The notes beneath the pieces were generated by a model. That model was not told the DNA's origin and did not search any database. It saw nothing but the letters and a program-made list of their open reading frames with translations. From Emcibacteraceae bacterium (GTDB taxonomy: Bacteria > Pseudomonadota > Alphaproteobacteria > Sphingomonadales > Emcibacteraceae), in NCBI GenBank assembly GCA_021774795.1, contig JAJFIR010000014.1, forward strand, positions 1-64,000: a stretch of DNA of 64,000 nt, written 5' to 3'. Shown piece by piece: positions 6,099 through 10,839 of this stretch. Position numbers and translations under genes: made by a program. Position 1 is the stretch's first letter. Each line of letters starts with the position of its first letter.

Positions 6099-7643
6099 TT
6101 ATTGCAAATTATTTATTCTGTGATCTCTTCTGGCACGACGTCTGGCTTCCTCGCGTAATCTCTCCCGCACTTGATGGCGGACTTCAATGCGGGCGGTGTC
6201 CTTTAAGTCGCCCTGCGCCTGGTCCTTAATATCTGCGGCAATATCATTTTTTATTTGCATCTCTGCTTGCTCTCGAGCTTCGAGTTCCGCTTGTATTCTT
6301 GCTTCAAATTCAGCTTGTCTTCTTGCTTCCAGCTCCGCTTGTCGACGGGCTTCTATCTCAGCTTGCCTTCTTGCTTCAAATTCAGCCTGACGGCGTGCGA
6401 GGGCTGCTGCTTGCCTCCTTGCTTCAATTCCGGCTTGCCTTCTGGCTTCCAGCTCTGCCTGCCGCCGCGCTTCAAGTTCAGCTTGTCTTCTCGCGTCCAA
6501 CTCTGCCTTGCGGCGCGCCTGTTGTTCGGTTTGGCGGTGTGCTTCAATTTCAGACTGACGTCTTGCCTCCAACTCCGCCTGTCTTCTCGCAACTATTTCT
6601 GCCTGGCGTCTGATTTCTAATTCACTTTGTCGGACCAGATCTGCTTGTTCTTGCCGCCTGTTTTCCATAATTGCCGATATCCGTTCCGTGCGAACAGCCC
6701 GTACTTCATCTAATTGAACTTCCCTTAGTGATATTTTATTATCCAGCAATTCCGCCCGCGCTTTAATGGTCACTATTTTTGATACTCCCAGGCCTAAATT
6801 TTCCACCTTTGAAACATCCACCTGCGGTATCGTAATTTGCTCCTGATTGATCGTTATTCGATCTCTTCCATCCATAAGTAATTGATAAGAAACCATATCG
6901 GGCATTTTATCAAACGGAAGCGGCCCACGTTCTCGTACTTTATTAACGATCAAATTCAATTCACCGTCGCCCTGGATATCCAATATCCCCGATATTTCAA
7001 CATGCTCACCATTTTTTAAACCATGATTTTCCTGAATGACTTTCTGATCTTCAATCCAGTATGAATTTGGCTCCGCCCGTTCAATTGGCCCTCTGAGCGA
7101 CATTTCATTTGCAATAAGCGGAAGTGCTATATGTGACGCAATGATGTCACCCCCTGGCTTTCTGAACCCACTAACCGCAATCTGCCGATTTGAATCTATT
7201 TCACCGCCCGGAATATCAATTATAGTGTCATCTGTCATGATAACCCGTTGACCCATGACTTCCAGCTGATCCGGTGCTACCGATATCACCGGTCCATTCA
7301 CTTCTTCAATAATTTCTATGGAATTTGCAAAAACCCTGTTTCCTTCTTCATCAACCAGCACAGCAACAATTTGACCAATTTTAAGTCGGCTCGGAAGACC
7401 ATCACGGCCCTGTCTGATCACATTTTGCTCCGCGTCATAGAAAATTTCGACACCATTAACCCAAATACTGCCGAAGGCATCGATCCGCCCATAAATGCCT
7501 GTGCCGCCAATACCACCCGGTGCGCCGCTAATACCGGTTCCGCCGATGCCGCCGGGCATACGCGAAAGCGCGAATATAGCACTCAGGATCAAAAGTCCCG
7601 CAAAGGCCAAAGCCGTGCGTCTATTTTGGATAAAGCTACCCAT
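6099..7643 (-). CDS. DUF5666 protein with N-terminal membrane segment and 16-fold octad repeat
   Basis: The ATG at 7643 shares its A with the stop codon of the upstream DUF6502 gene, so translation is probably coupled; an in-frame TTG lies one codon earlier. Residues about 11-28 form a signal or anchor segment. A twice-repeated glycine motif (PGGIGGTGI) at 31-52 precedes several small beta domains at about 53-320, of the DUF5666 type (GRIDAFGSIWVNGVEI). From residue 338 to 465 there are 16 copies of an eight-residue unit, typically RRQAELEA, giving a very long charged helix. A basic tail follows. Function is unknown. The helix could span the periplasm or bind the two similarly charged exported proteins encoded upstream. 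Domain calls are from memory of the family. Confidence 0.75.
   Translation of the reverse strand: MGSFIQNRRTALAFAGLLILSAIFALSRMPGGIGGTGISGAPGGIGGTGIYGRIDAFGSIWVNGVEIFYDAEQNVIRQGRDGLPSRLKIGQIVAVLVDEEGNRVFANSIEIIEEVNGPVISVAPDQLEVMGQRVIMTDDTIIDIPGGEIDSNRQIAVSGFRKPGGDIIASHIALPLIANEMSLRGPIERAEPNSYWIEDQKVIQENHGLKNGEHVEISGILDIQGDGELNLIVNKVRERGPLPFDKMPDMVSYQLLMDGRDRITINQEQITIPQVDVSKVENLGLGVSKIVTIKARAELLDNKISLREVQLDEVRAVRTERISAIMENRRQEQADLVRQSELEIRRQAEIVARRQAELEARRQSEIEAHRQTEQQARRKAELDARRQAELEARRQAELEARRQAGIEARRQAAALARRQAEFEARRQAEIEARRQAELEARRQAEFEARIQAELEAREQAEMQIKNDIAADIKDQAQGDLKDTARIEVRHQVRERLREEARRRARRDHRINNLQ
6252..6635 (-). repeat. In-frame tandem repeat, 16 x 24 bp
   Basis: These 384 bases encode residues 338-465 of the DUF5666 protein as 16 consecutive octads. 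The consensus is RRQAELEA; the outermost units diverge (VRQSELEI first, REQAEMQI last), while the inner units are near-identical in protein but vary in synonymous codons. This indicates an old array kept by selection rather than a fresh expansion. An octad does not fit a canonical heptad coiled coil. The alternating basic and acidic charges instead suit an isolated charged alpha-helix. Confidence 0.9.
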
Positions 7644-8512
7644 CAACTATCATCCTTATCCGAATAATAATAAATTCCAAAAGTCATCCGTTGATCATTG
7701 TTTCCTTTTTTCTGATCACCTTCCGCAAGTTCGTATGCCGCCTTATTTATCGCAATCAGGCTTTCCATCCCCTGCTCTTCAACCAATTCTTCAAGCTTTT
7801 CTGTTGATGCCGCCGTCAGGTCCTTATAATAGACGGAGCGCTCCAAGAACTTTTTACCGGTATCATTTTCGTTTTGCGCAACATTATGAACCGCTGCCGC
7901 CATATGATCATGCAAGTTTCGATCAAAATGGCTTAATAATTCTTCAAAATTTTCCTTTGGAATAAAGGCAGTTTTATTTAATTTTATAAGCCCATCACTA
8001 TCTTTAACCACCATTTTTTGTGCCGTCATCTCATCCAGCGCGACACGCGGGCGTATATCATTATTTATGCTATTCACCAACGCTTCGAAATTGGCTGCGC
8101 CTTTTGCCTTGGATGATAATTTATATAACCTTAACGGCTCGCCCTGCTCATCAGTATAAGCATCATCCGCCAACCATTTTGCAACGATCTGTGCACCAAG
8201 AGAGGCTTTCTTGGCGGATAATTCCACGCCATCCACCGGCACCACGAAATTTACGTTTTCATTTCGAAGCCGCCTTACATCCTTACGGTGAACTTTAGTA
8301 AGCAACGTTATGCGACTATCTGTGACTTCTTTGTCTGGAGAGAGTTTGTAGTCCTTCGCCGCCACTTCAACATAGATATGCTTTAGCATTTCCGCGAACA
8401 TTGGAAAAGTAACACCGCGCGCAATTAAAAACTTAACCAACGGGCGCATCACATTTGTGATGGCTCGTATGATTAATCCGTCATTTTTTGCTATTTGCTC
8501 AGCATCACTCAT
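7643..8512 (-). CDS. DUF6502 family protein
   Basis: The protein has 289 residues and no signal peptide. The N-terminal half carries the family's recognisable blocks: VMRPLVKFLIARGVTFPMFAEMLK, a degenerate helix-turn-helix-like unit, then TDSRITLLTKVHRKDVRRLR, which looks like a winged-helix recognition region. The C-terminal half is helical (NFEELLSHFDRNLHDHMAAAVHN). DUF6502 has no assigned biochemical role; the N-terminal layout suggests DNA binding, which would make it a candidate regulator of its own operon. It lies six bases downstream of the outer-membrane barrel gene, and its stop codon overlaps the start of the DUF5666 gene. From memory, DUF6502 and DUF5666 genes often sit side by side in proteobacteria. 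Confidence 0.8.
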   Translation of the reverse strand: MSDAEQIAKNDGLIIRAITNVMRPLVKFLIARGVTFPMFAEMLKHIYVEVAAKDYKLSPDKEVTDSRITLLTKVHRKDVRRLRNENVNFVVPVDGVELSAKKASLGAQIVAKWLADDAYTDEQGEPLRLYKLSSKAKGAANFEALVNSINNDIRPRVALDEMTAQKMVVKDSDGLIKLNKTAFIPKENFEELLSHFDRNLHDHMAAAVHNVAQNENDTGKKFLERSVYYKDLTAASTEKLEELVEEQGMESLIAINKAAYELAEGDQKKGNNDQRMTFGIYYYSDKDDS

Positions 8513-8518
8513 ATAATT

Positions 8519-9442
8519 TTAAAATTCCCAGCCGACATTAATCGTCGTAATATTTTCATTATAATCTACCGGCTCAAAAGTTGAATTTGAAGCGATATAT
8601 TCATTGCTCAACTTGCCATTAAAGCCGTTCCCAAATGGTACTTCCCATGATACCGACAAAGTATGGCGTTTATCCGATCGGATAACCGTATCAATTGTGA
8701 GACTTGCGACGTCATATCCACGTGATTGAAGTCGGTAACCCATGCGTACGATAGTTTCTCTATCAATAATATCAAGCGGCAATTTCACCGAGAAATCAAC
8801 TGTGTGACCATTATACCGATACGCATCATCCGCAGTATCATGCAGGGAATAAGTATAACCCGCAGTGAAGGTCCGACCTTCCCCCAGCAAAATTATCGCT
8901 TTGATGGAACCACTATTGCGGCTCGCGTTGCGGCTCATCAACGACGCAAGTTTAAAGGTTTGCTTTTGATATTCGTAAGCACCTAATAAGTAGACGTTAT
9001 TTGCACCTGTTAAATATCCGACGCTTGGGCGCACAGTGTGCATATCCAGAAAGCTGTCGCCACCAAGACCTATCGTATTAAACAAGTAAGCTAAACCCAA
9101 ATCTATTCGGTCGATACTATATCGGCTATCAGCGTTAAACCCGTGAATGATCATATCGAATTCATCAAGATCATTATGAATACTTTGGTAATAATCATAT
9201 CCGGCTGAAAAGCTGACTTTATCATTATTGACAAAATCATAATTGAGCGACGCATCAAATATCAGCGCCTGATCACCTACATTGCTCGTACTATCAATAG
9301 AATCAACCGTAAGGTTACTATCAAACTCGTATCCGGCATTTGCTGAAAACGAAAATGGACTATCATTGGTTTGTGCCTGTGCAACCGATACACCGCCGCA
9401 CATCACCGAAGTCATCATCAAAAATTTAATATACATATTCAT
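8519..9442 (-). CDS. Outer-membrane beta-barrel protein
   Basis: The protein has 307 residues. A signal peptide ends at about residue 23 (VSVAQAQ). The rest is alternating hydrophobic/polar strands with aromatic girdles (FSFSANAGYEFDSNLTV, VSFSAGYDYYQS, TFTAGYTYSLHD) and the C-terminal residue is Phe in INVGWEF, the usual BAM recognition end. The layout resembles the C-terminal barrel of surface lipoprotein assembly modifiers (DUF560-like) or small porins, but the N-terminal periplasmic domain of Slam is absent. Its position between two exported charged proteins upstream and the DUF6502/DUF5666 pair downstream suggests it is the outer-membrane component of one assembly. The substrate or ligand is unknown. 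Confidence 0.75.
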   Translation of the reverse strand: MNMYIKFLMMTSVMCGGVSVAQAQTNDSPFSFSANAGYEFDSNLTVDSIDSTSNVGDQALIFDASLNYDFVNNDKVSFSAGYDYYQSIHNDLDEFDMIIHGFNADSRYSIDRIDLGLAYLFNTIGLGGDSFLDMHTVRPSVGYLTGANNVYLLGAYEYQKQTFKLASLMSRNASRNSGSIKAIILLGEGRTFTAGYTYSLHDTADDAYRYNGHTVDFSVKLPLDIIDRETIVRMGYRLQSRGYDVASLTIDTVIRSDKRHTLSVSWEVPFGNGFNGKLSNEYIASNSTFEPVDYNENITTINVGWEF

Positions 9443-9514
9443 ACTCTTTTAATCCCATAATCCTGATTTTTAATAGCGACCCCATTATTATGAGGCCGCT
9501 ATATAAATTTAATC

Positions 9515-10021
9515 TTAACCTTCAGTCGCTGCTGCAATTGCCGCTTCACGTGCTGCGCGTGTTGTCGCACGTACTTCTTCACGTATTTCGCGGGTCGCCT
9601 CTCTGGCGGCCTGGCGGATTTCCTGGCTAGACGCGCGCGCCGCGACACGTGCCTCTTCAGTACCTGCTTCGCGAGCTTCATCACGTATCGCGCGCACTTC
9701 ATCACGGGCTACATCACGAATTTGCCGCACTTCTTCACGGGCCGCTTCACGTATTTCGGCGTTCGCTTCTGCTACTTCCGGGAACTCTGCAACAAATGCC
9801 TCACGGGCTTCTGCATTTGTTTCGCGGCGTGCATCACGGCGTTCATCACGTATTTCGCGGCGATCTGCACGCCTGTCTCCTCTTCGATCTACGCGACTAT
9901 CATCGTCTACCGATATATCAACATCAGTAGATGATTCCTGGGCATTTACCGTTGAACCAAGGCCAAATAATAATGAAACCATGGCTGTAGCAAATATAAT
10001 ATTTATCGTCTTGATATTCAT
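9515..10021 (-). CDS. Exported Arg/Ala/Glu-rich helical protein
   Basis: The protein has 168 residues. GGAGAAG lies six bases upstream of the ATG. Residues 1-27 form a signal peptide (cleavage after TVNAQ). The mature protein begins with an acidic patch (DVDISVDDD), then a stretch rich in RxDRR/RDERR, then a long helix of repeated units such as REAAREEVRQIRD, ARDEVRAIRDEAREAGTEEA and AAREATREIREEV. No enzyme motif is visible. The last about 65 residues align without difficulty to the C-terminus of the neighbouring 10060-10758 protein, so the two are paralogues. This is probably an extended charged helix in the periplasm or at the cell surface. I do not recognise a named family. Confidence 0.7.
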   Translation of the reverse strand: MNIKTINIIFATAMVSLLFGLGSTVNAQESSTDVDISVDDDSRVDRRGDRRADRREIRDERRDARRETNAEAREAFVAEFPEVAEANAEIREAAREEVRQIRDVARDEVRAIRDEAREAGTEEARVAARASSQEIRQAAREATREIREEVRATTRAAREAAIAAATEG

Positions 10022-10059
10022 TTTTCTTCTCCGTTTAAAAGTTTATAAAAAAGTTATAA

Positions 10060-10758
10060 TTACCCGCTCGTTGCATCGCGAACATTTTGACGAGCGTCAA
10101 TACTAATCACTCTCACTTCTGCTCGTGCAGTCTCTCTTAAATCCTGAGTTGCCTGCCTTGCAACAATTCGAGCTTCTTGCGTACCTACTTCGCGGGCTAC
10201 ACGTCTAATTGCCTGTATCTCATCACGGGCTGTATCACGGATTTCCTGTTGCTTTTCCTGCATATCACGAACGGCATCGCGTCTTGCGTCTCTTTGTGCA
10301 TCACTTAGTGCAGCGCGCTTCACATCCACATTTAAATCCATGTCATCCCGAATGTTCTGAACTCTATGAATAGCCTGTTGAATATTTTTTCGAATTTCAA
10401 GAAGAGCGAATTTAAGCCTGTTTTCAATTTTCTTTATCGCTTGCGTCGCTGCTCTTTTCGCTTGTGCAGTTCCGGCAAGTCGCGCTCTTTGCATGATTGA
10501 TTTGATTTTTGCATCTGCTTTGGCTTTAAGTTCATTTGCCTTTTCTTTTTGTGAATGAATGTAACGACGTAATTTTTTATGGATATTCCCATCAGCATCT
10601 GTCACATCAGTTGGAATGCTAACGCTAATGTAATCTTCCTGATTATAGCTAAAGTCACTTTCAATATCTGCTTCTTGTGTATAACCAATGGAACAATATC
10701 CAATCATTATAGAAAATGTTGATGCGCTCATAATTCTGTTGAATTTTTTAAATGTCAT
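10060..10758 (-). CDS. Exported Arg/Ala-rich helical protein, first gene of the five-gene unit
   Basis: The protein has 232 residues. AAGGAAAGAG lies just before the ATG at 10758. A signal peptide covers about residues 1-28 (cleavage after GYTQ). The N-terminal third of the mature protein has a short beta-like segment (EDYISVSIPTDVTDADG), followed by lysine-rich helix and then Arg/Ala/Glu-rich helix with the signature ARDEIQAIRRVAREVGTQEARIVARQATQDL split over several turns. The final 60 residues parallel the downstream paralogue. It is the first gene after a promoter with two palindromes at 10786-10839, and only 38 bases separate it from the next gene, so it heads the transcript. Function is unknown. 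Confidence 0.7.
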   Translation of the reverse strand: MTFKKFNRIMSASTFSIMIGYCSIGYTQEADIESDFSYNQEDYISVSIPTDVTDADGNIHKKLRRYIHSQKEKANELKAKADAKIKSIMQRARLAGTAQAKRAATQAIKKIENRLKFALLEIRKNIQQAIHRVQNIRDDMDLNVDVKRAALSDAQRDARRDAVRDMQEKQQEIRDTARDEIQAIRRVAREVGTQEARIVARQATQDLRETARAEVRVISIDARQNVRDATSG

Positions 10759-10785
10759 TGTCTCTTTCCTTCATAAATATTTATA

Positions 10786-10839
10786 TGGGATAATTTCCCA
10801 CGTTGTAATAATATTAAGTGGGATATTTTCCCACGTCAA
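10786..10839 (-). promoter_or_regulatory. Promoter with paired palindromic operators upstream of the five-gene unit
   Basis: Reading leftward, TTGACG (10839-10834) and TAATAT (10816-10811) form -35 and -10 boxes with a 17-base spacer. The spacer coincides with an inverted repeat whose arms are GTGGGA and TCCCAC (10818-10834). A second copy with arms TGGGA/TCCCA lies at 10786-10800, downstream of the predicted transcript start. The two centres are 33 bases apart, about three helical turns, as expected for cooperative binding of one repressor on one face. I cannot name the regulator; the DUF6502 protein of the same unit is one candidate. Confidence 0.6.

Follow-up and report, generated by a model that had tools for sequence, protein, structure and literature searches.

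Paired palindromic operators ahead of a DUF6502-DUF5666 envelope operon in an Emcibacteraceae bacterium point to probable local self-regulation

The stretch of DNA analysed here (the window) comprises 64,000 nucleotides of an Emcibacteraceae bacterium (contig JAJFIR010000014.1, positions 1 to 64,000) and carries, between positions 6099 and 10758, five genes encoded on the minus strand in the order A-B-C-D-E. Coordinates from the open reading frame calls confirmed the layout described in an initial annotation of this DNA, with gaps of 38, 72 and 6 bases followed by a one-base overlap between D and E (TGATG), the ATG start of E being at 7643. Genes A (10060..10758, minus strand, 232 amino acids) and B (9515..10021, minus strand, 168 amino acids) encode exported helix proteins with 11-residue repeats, charged in A and Arg/Ala/Glu-rich in B; gene C (8519..9442, minus strand, 307 amino acids) encodes a predicted outer-membrane beta-barrel that matches the SlipAM barrel model; gene D (7643..8512, minus strand) encodes a DUF6502 protein predicted to be a transcription factor with a helix-turn-helix (HTH) and a winged HTH; and gene E (6099..7643, minus strand) encodes a DUF5666 protein with a membrane helix (residues 8-27), a GGIGGTG linker, oligonucleotide/oligosaccharide-binding (OB)-like domains (residues 48-316) and a charged tail of octad repeats. 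The compartments that had been proposed for these proteins were judged plausible from Pfam matches and predicted models.

The strongest signal at the locus is a pair of palindromes ahead of the five genes, absent from the initial annotation. The promoter (10811..10839, minus strand) consists of TTGACG (10839-10834), a 17-base spacer and TAATAT (10816-10811), the spacer being filled by operator 1 (10818..10834), which reads GTGGGAAAATATCCCAC, contains an exact TGGGA-N5-TCCCA (N5 form) at 10819-10833 and is conserved in relatives. Operator 2 (10785..10801), with an exact copy at 10786-10800, has its centre 33 bp from that of operator 1 and lies just past the predicted transcription start; neither operator was assigned a strand. 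Promoter-like matches in the region were at chance level (12 found vs. 11.8 in shuffles) and the promoter call therefore rests on conservation in relatives. The layout of TTGAC[GA], operator and TATATT-like box (the boxes recognised by eye) is kept in alphaproteobacterial relatives, where nine of the 14 sites listed directly follow TTGACG or TTGACA, two follow TTGATA and three are the second sites of a pair, and operator pairs like that of the window were found in loci L008 and L114. In the window and its close relatives the operator overlaps the promoter of its own operon, as looked for in an autorepressor. The single promoter of the initial annotation stands in so far as the operators are overlapped by a single promoter-like sequence (10839-10811). 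A hairpin between B and C, described below, may divide expression.

Similar sites precede other genes in related genomes. In G008 two sites lie before A and one before B, and in G019 one lies before an exported helix gene. G038 has such sites ahead of an exported gene and of a separately transcribed barrel-like gene, and a further one, with one mismatch, ahead of D. At L009 a barrel-like gene on the other strand has the same promoter-operator layout, indicating that separate transcription units stand under one operator. Most neighbouring sites were separated by 27-35 or by 55-66 bases; the two exceptions were a pair at 40 and another at 93. Helical phasing of the pairs was considered and dropped, as roughly half a helical turn separates the two most frequent spacings (28 and 34).

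GTDB species genomes were scanned with a DUF6502 alignment, yielding 164 relatives, the best 80 of which were kept and, together with the window, made up 81 loci (1.19 Mb). The exact N5 form occurred 66 times in these loci, and the same arms separated by 2, 3, 4, 6, 7, 8 or 9 bases occurred 0, 0, 1, 2, 1, 0 and 0 times, respectively. When up to one mismatch was allowed, an N5 site was present between -400 and +60 of the DUF6502 start in 60 of the 81 loci vs. 1.15 in shuffles. Of the 17 exact sites distant from DUF6502, 16 preceded a gene within that locus for an exported protein, a lipoprotein or a barrel-like protein (export judged by eye), and the remaining one lies inside an over-extended DUF6502 frame.

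DUF6502 was present in 21 of 398 genomes of the phylum (24 genes), in 47 of 300 of the order of genome G217 and in 69 of 121 of family f60 (66 over cut-off). An unselected set of 103 DUF6502 genes was analysed (23 from the phylum, 52 from the order and 28 from f60, after removal of four duplicate loci); the sample centres, G286 and G217, had been picked after their loci were seen, the loci within the samples were not chosen by motif, and some of the sample genes are scan loci (seemingly L143 is L011 and L146 is L058). In this set, the N5 form was found for 43 genes, the form TGGGA-N6-TCCCA (N6) for 33, CGTGT-N9-ACACG for eight and any form for 78, compared to 1.8, 1.4, 1.4 and 4.6 in shuffles, the N6 and CGTGT forms having been defined on loci of which three (L135-L137) sit in the 103; the control spacings N4, N7 and CGTGT-N8 gave one, three and two. 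The f60 sample was made up of the 30 loci that scored best among 86 rows; 24 of these carry an exact TGGGA-N6-TCCCA, mostly TGGGAATACAATCCCA, which lies 36-52 bases ahead of where the match to DUF6502 begins.

The operator class also clusters on the tree of the DUF6502 proteins, in which 10 f60 rows and roughly one half of the HRK scan rows (by an arbitrary hash rule) were retained and fragments below 200 amino acids were dropped. The N6 label required four changes vs. 13.5 when shuffled, none of 500 shuffles being as low, and the division of N5 and N6 by subfamily required three. Therefore, the operator evolves with the DUF6502 protein. One-residue codes (K77R with TGTG; H75T with N6) were tried and failed on the order sample, with too few independent events. 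A natural test of operator specificity is provided by genome G354, in which four DUF6502 genes (L135, L147, L149 and L152) have different HTH types and different or no operators.

The product of D is the sole predicted DNA-binding protein of the operon. It matches DUF6502 (PF20112) in Pfam with 77.1 bits (cut-off 27; 1.3e-21), and its HTH (8255..8329, minus strand; residues 62-86, EVTDSRITLLTKVHRKDVRRLRNEN) contains T64, D65, S66, L70, G73, H75, R76, K77 and R83, each at least 90% conserved among 69 sequences. An AlphaFold2 model based on 69 sequences (predicted local distance difference test, pLDDT, 81.7; predicted template modelling score, pTM, 0.62) has an HTH at residues 34-96 and a winged HTH at 100-187. 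Structural matches to this model, among the 50 listed, were mostly DNA-binding proteins (sigma factors, TrpR, PcaR, IclR, DtxR/IdeR and MarR-like proteins) with few others, at middling Z values; model and matches together bear out the earlier description of D as a regulator-like HTH protein. A search of solved structures with the DUF6502 profile gave nothing useful (best 8e1e_A, E 0.012). The best fold Z was 6.5 for DUF6502 and 7.9 for DUF5666, and since no match stands clear of background the folds are called only HTH-like and OB-like. The Pfam entry PF20112 gives no function, and none was found for DUF6502 in the literature searched.

The best full-length structural alignment to D was that of HetR from heterocystous cyanobacteria (4j00_A; Z 6.5, root mean square deviation 12.2, which is large, 218 residues aligned), a protein of similar length (289 and 299 amino acids) in which an N-terminal HTH is followed by two further parts. 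HetR binds a GGG-N5-CCC palindrome and is autoregulated, according to two reports (PMC4649674, PMC4192349), so that the kind of palindrome is in common, but the spacing near DUF6502 is GGG-N7-CCC or GGG-N8-CCC. No sequence kinship was detected between D and two HetR sequences (hhalign probability 0.1), and the structural lead, not upheld at the sequence level, was kept as an analogy only. RGSGR-bearing PatS peptides act as a signal on HetR. By analogy, DUF6502 could be a HetR-like proteobacterial family of dimers acting on a GGG...CCC palindrome as the switch of a surface programme, its activity being set by the co-translated exported partner through release of the conserved, repeated and disordered GGIGGTG segment as a peptide; as a joint proposal, this appears very improbable.

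The distribution of the operator bears on a different explanation, in which an unlinked regulator other than DUF6502 would recognise the palindrome, DUF6502 being just one of its regulated genes and acting elsewhere, for instance on RNA or as an adaptor. A/T-centred palindromes do occur in genomes with no DUF6502 match, among them four from a single family (L125, L126, L127 and L128), in which it precedes a RecF-like gene (recognised by eye) where the palindrome, TGGGAWWWWWTCCCA, may be used by another regulator or signal. However, in the window genome (G000) the A/T-centred site was found at this operon only, which would be odd for a distant regulator, and the facts that the operator form follows the DUF6502 tree and that no other DNA-binding protein is predicted in the operon also argue against such a regulator. 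Among 118 relatives, DUF6502 was detected in four, all of them with the A/T-centred operator. G006 and G018 further showed the promoter of this operon, in both cases on a contig that breaks off within a helix gene, as if the operon had been cut there. A DUF5666 match in G006 led to another of its contigs, which starts inside a truncated DUF6502 gene and continues with E and an argC-like gene; the operator located here an operon that the DUF6502 protein search had missed, and the presence of a truncated DUF6502 in a genome found through the operator again speaks against an unlinked regulator. In G018, neither DUF6502 nor DUF5666 was found in the genome. Altogether, control by an unlinked regulator seems decidedly unlikely. 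As a separate observation, TGGGAAAAAATCCCA precedes a conserved FtsB-like gene of about 100 amino acids (by eye) at L115 and L116, which belong to the genus of the window and have no DUF6502 match.

Several results weigh against the assignment of the palindrome to DUF6502. A near N5 site was lacking in 21 scan loci, although six of these carry an exact copy farther from the gene, and none of the three operator forms was found near the gene in 15 of the 81 scan loci and 25 of the 103 unselected genes. A search of the 398 phylum genomes for the strict double-site pattern retrieved only G000, although 21 of them have DUF6502. Sites with any centre numbered five in G000, three of them elsewhere (control, two), and the A/T-centred site was also present in 18 of the 114 relatives with no DUF6502 match (reversed-pattern control, five of 118), the contexts in 17 of these 18 genomes being mostly coding regions or unrelated genes. 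The independent contrasts between N5 and N6 were three, too few for a test at the residue level. The CGTGT form was found in five of seven scan loci of HRR members and in neither of two in the order sample, and seven of the 50 HRK genes in the unselected set match it (two differing alignments put the number of HRK genes from the phylum at 15 and 14), whereas NRK members have N5 in two of two cases in one group, N6 in four of four in another and neither in the single case of a third. Only 13 of 94 exact N5 sites overall abut a -35-like hexamer, so that placement in the promoter spacer is a lineage trait and not a family trait. Finally, Foldseek gave no significant match to the model of D (best E 0.45).

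With these points weighed, the unit is, on sequence evidence, rather likely to be a locally self-regulated envelope operon, in which DUF6502 would be an HTH transcription factor acting on the palindrome. The sign of this control was considered in the light of the position of the sites. DUF6502 could be an activator, either MerR-like within the promoter spacer or recruiting the polymerase from upstream tandem sites, and many loci do have sites that are paired and located 60-150 bases upstream of the gene, which would suit cooperative activators too, as would the 81 of 94 exact sites that do not abut a -35-like hexamer. However, the window and its close relatives have a normal 17-base spacer and a good -35 box (TTGACG), so that distortion in the manner of MerR-type regulators would not be needed, and site 2 of the window lies past the predicted start. 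Activation is thus considered unlikely, and DUF6502 is probably an autorepressor.

Regarding gene E, its product matches DUF5666 (PF18914) in Pfam with 48.5 bits (cut-off 27; 1.1e-12), and its tail repeats in octads, with a self-identity of 0.60 at lag 8. In the model of its first 330 residues (pLDDT 84.7, pTM 0.80), a membrane helix is followed by a GGIGGTG linker, predicted with low confidence, and by OB-like domains in tandem. Structural matches were found with the periplasmic OB-fold protein YgiW (1nnx; Foldseek probability 1.00, 70 columns, E 0.035), with PilY2 (3tdq_A; Z 7.6, root mean square deviation 3.0, 81 aligned) and with CusF (2qcp; Z 6.9, root mean square deviation 3.6, 64 aligned), although E differs from these by its several domains, its anchor, its GGIGGTG repeats and its long charged tail. 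Cytoplasmic OB proteins match or exceed these scores, RPA (2pi2_D) reaching a Z of 7.9, and no ligand can therefore be deduced for E. Its two GGIGGTG copies (7498..7550, minus strand) were the only matches in the genome to the back-translated motif. The only PADLOC match, to a Type I specificity protein inside the charged repeat tail, was taken as a low-complexity artefact.

A candidate partner gene was located downstream of DUF6502 in 70 of the 81 scan loci, 59 of the 70 with a G[IVL]GG[TS]G motif. Neighbouring gene calls were weak in GC-rich loci, and 76 of the 81 loci could be anchored, 72 of them with both neighbours covered. Across the 59 partners the GGIGGTG-type motifs are strongly conserved, in one to eight copies, and the tails vary from PEK-rich to AAQEEAE repeats. 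FGSIxVN occurs together with the motif in 55 proteins, and in 47 of these the last motif copy stands 13 residues ahead of it. According to a hidden Markov model built for this purpose from the 59 partners, DUF6502 is immediately followed by a DUF5666-type partner at 17 of the 23 loci from the phylum sample, with a stop/start overlap in 12 of the 17, which upholds the recurrence of the DUF6502-DUF5666 pair proposed in the initial annotation. The literature searched offered no function for DUF5666 either, some papers just listing its name.

Other exported proteins accompany DUF6502 at particular loci. Lipoproteins with one GGIGGTG-type copy are divergent from DUF6502 at L034, L036, L038 and L064, that of L034 having no DUF5666 match in Pfam. 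At L074 (10019-10574), adjoining DUF6502-DUF5666, a lipoprotein-like gene whose product has a Fasciclin domain (1.8e-40) stands behind an exact operator. At L020, L021 and L029 (around 7017-7764, minus strand) three operators separate DUF6502 from divergent genes for exported Pro/Gly-rich proteins with GPRGGPG repeats.

The helix proteins A and B show an 11-residue period, with a hydrophobic period of 3.68-3.70 (11/3 = 3.67) and, in B, a lag-11 self-identity of 0.35. Their orthologues in two other genomes of the genus (G008 and G006) have signal-like N-termini and are kept in the same A-B order, so that A and B are regarded as genes and not as chance frames. Neither protein matched a family over cut-off in Pfam or NCBIfam, the models of late embryogenesis abundant (LEA) and apolipoprotein-type 11-mer proteins included; with these, A and B share only the 11-residue period. 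The whole unit is kept in G008, and A-B and D-E lie on two separate contigs in G006. In the window it is flanked upstream by genes with Lysine_decarbox and glyoxalase domains and downstream by an argC-like gene (Semialdhyde_dh; Pfam); the upstream pair is also found in G008, and both flanks in G006 (by eye). A small exported protein (87, up to 102 amino acids) is encoded between A and B in L008 (2111-2374) and L114 (6347-6655) and is missing from the window.

Counted by a composition threshold, of which gene A itself falls short, exported charged helices were detected in three of the 81 DUF6502 loci, all from Emcibacteraceae, and such helix genes also lie on the truncated contigs of G006 and G018, which belong to the same bacterial family. 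The exported 11-residue-repeat helices are thus a lineage-specific addition, seen in Emcibacteraceae only. In Emcibacter OFTM17 (L010, 11195-13150), an exported Arg/Ala/Glu/His-rich helix gene follows extracytoplasmic function (ECF)-sigma-like and anti-sigma-like genes (by eye) beside the DUF6502 operon, and this pair is perhaps a second control route for helix proteins.

The barrel protein C matches SlipAM (PF04575; 2.7e-9, 37.4 bits, cut-off 22), with Phenol_MetA_deg also over cut-off, and its relatives in L008 and L010 match the SlipAM model as well. Slam proteins, which translocate surface lipoproteins, have an N-terminal tetratricopeptide repeat (TPR) domain. C and its relatives have the barrel match in common with these outer-membrane proteins, but no TPR domain was matched in the 307 residues of C by the Pfam scan, and no surface-lipoprotein partner is shown for C. 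Barrel-like genes were found within seven genes of DUF6502 in 35 of the 72 fully covered loci and form two clusters, C2 and C24, with no BLAST similarity between one example of each, although an older link between them may exist. The barrel label of C2 derives from the Pfam results of three members, of which one was over cut-off (Phenol_MetA_deg), one was below it (DUF3187) and one had no match.

These counts bear on the initial annotation, which built the unit around the helices, stressed their association with the barrel and raised the possibility of a trans-envelope bridge or surface-helix display machine of all five proteins. The predicted compartments of the proteins would agree with such a machine, as would the gene order kept within the genus, entire in G008 and as A-B and D-E on the two G006 contigs. 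However, 78 of the 81 DUF6502 loci had no exported charged helices by the same threshold, and the tails of the E-type partners are variable. As to the core itself, the helices did not hold beyond their three loci, whereas barrel-like genes did recur, although as two unlinked clusters; the outcome that the initial annotation had named as a refutation, absence of both from most relatives, was thus half borne out. A bridge or display machine therefore has very little likelihood. The genes of the unit are united by their shared operator, and the best reading is that DUF6502 controls its DUF5666 partner and a varying set of exported proteins and barrels.

Expression within the operon may be further adjusted by a predicted RNA hairpin between B and C (9473..9502, minus strand; 13 pairs), a candidate attenuator or stabiliser. 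Its z value was -5.2 in the window and -5.75 in L008, and weak in L010 (-1.94); all 13 pairs are kept between the window and G008, with two pairs changed on both sides, which suggests that A-B and C-D-E are unequally expressed.

In the proposed circuit, we infer that D, presumably as a dimer, would bind GTGGGA-N5-TCCCAC and repress its own operon; bound D would block RNA polymerase, since site 1 fills the -35/-10 spacer and site 2 closely follows the predicted start. Some cue would then clear D from the promoter, upon which the amphipathic A and B helices, the C barrel, D itself and E, as an anchored OB-like rod with a charged tail, would be made, A and B accumulating above C-D-E by means of the hairpin. 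The exported proteins would most likely coat or stabilise envelope surfaces.

As a type, an envelope operon under a local HTH regulator is ordinary. The literature searched contained nothing relevant on the TGGGA-N5-TCCCA motif and the DUF6502 family and, as far as it shows, the role proposed here from sequence would be the first regulatory one for DUF6502 and DUF5666, both of which are widespread in Proteobacteria. A defined operator would turn these two families into a regulator and its target, and an unexplained gene cluster into a control circuit that can be tested. The operator can also serve as a DNA probe for members of the regulon, one operon having already been located beyond the reach of the protein search, and the function of the exported repeat proteins and barrels would become testable through their inducers.

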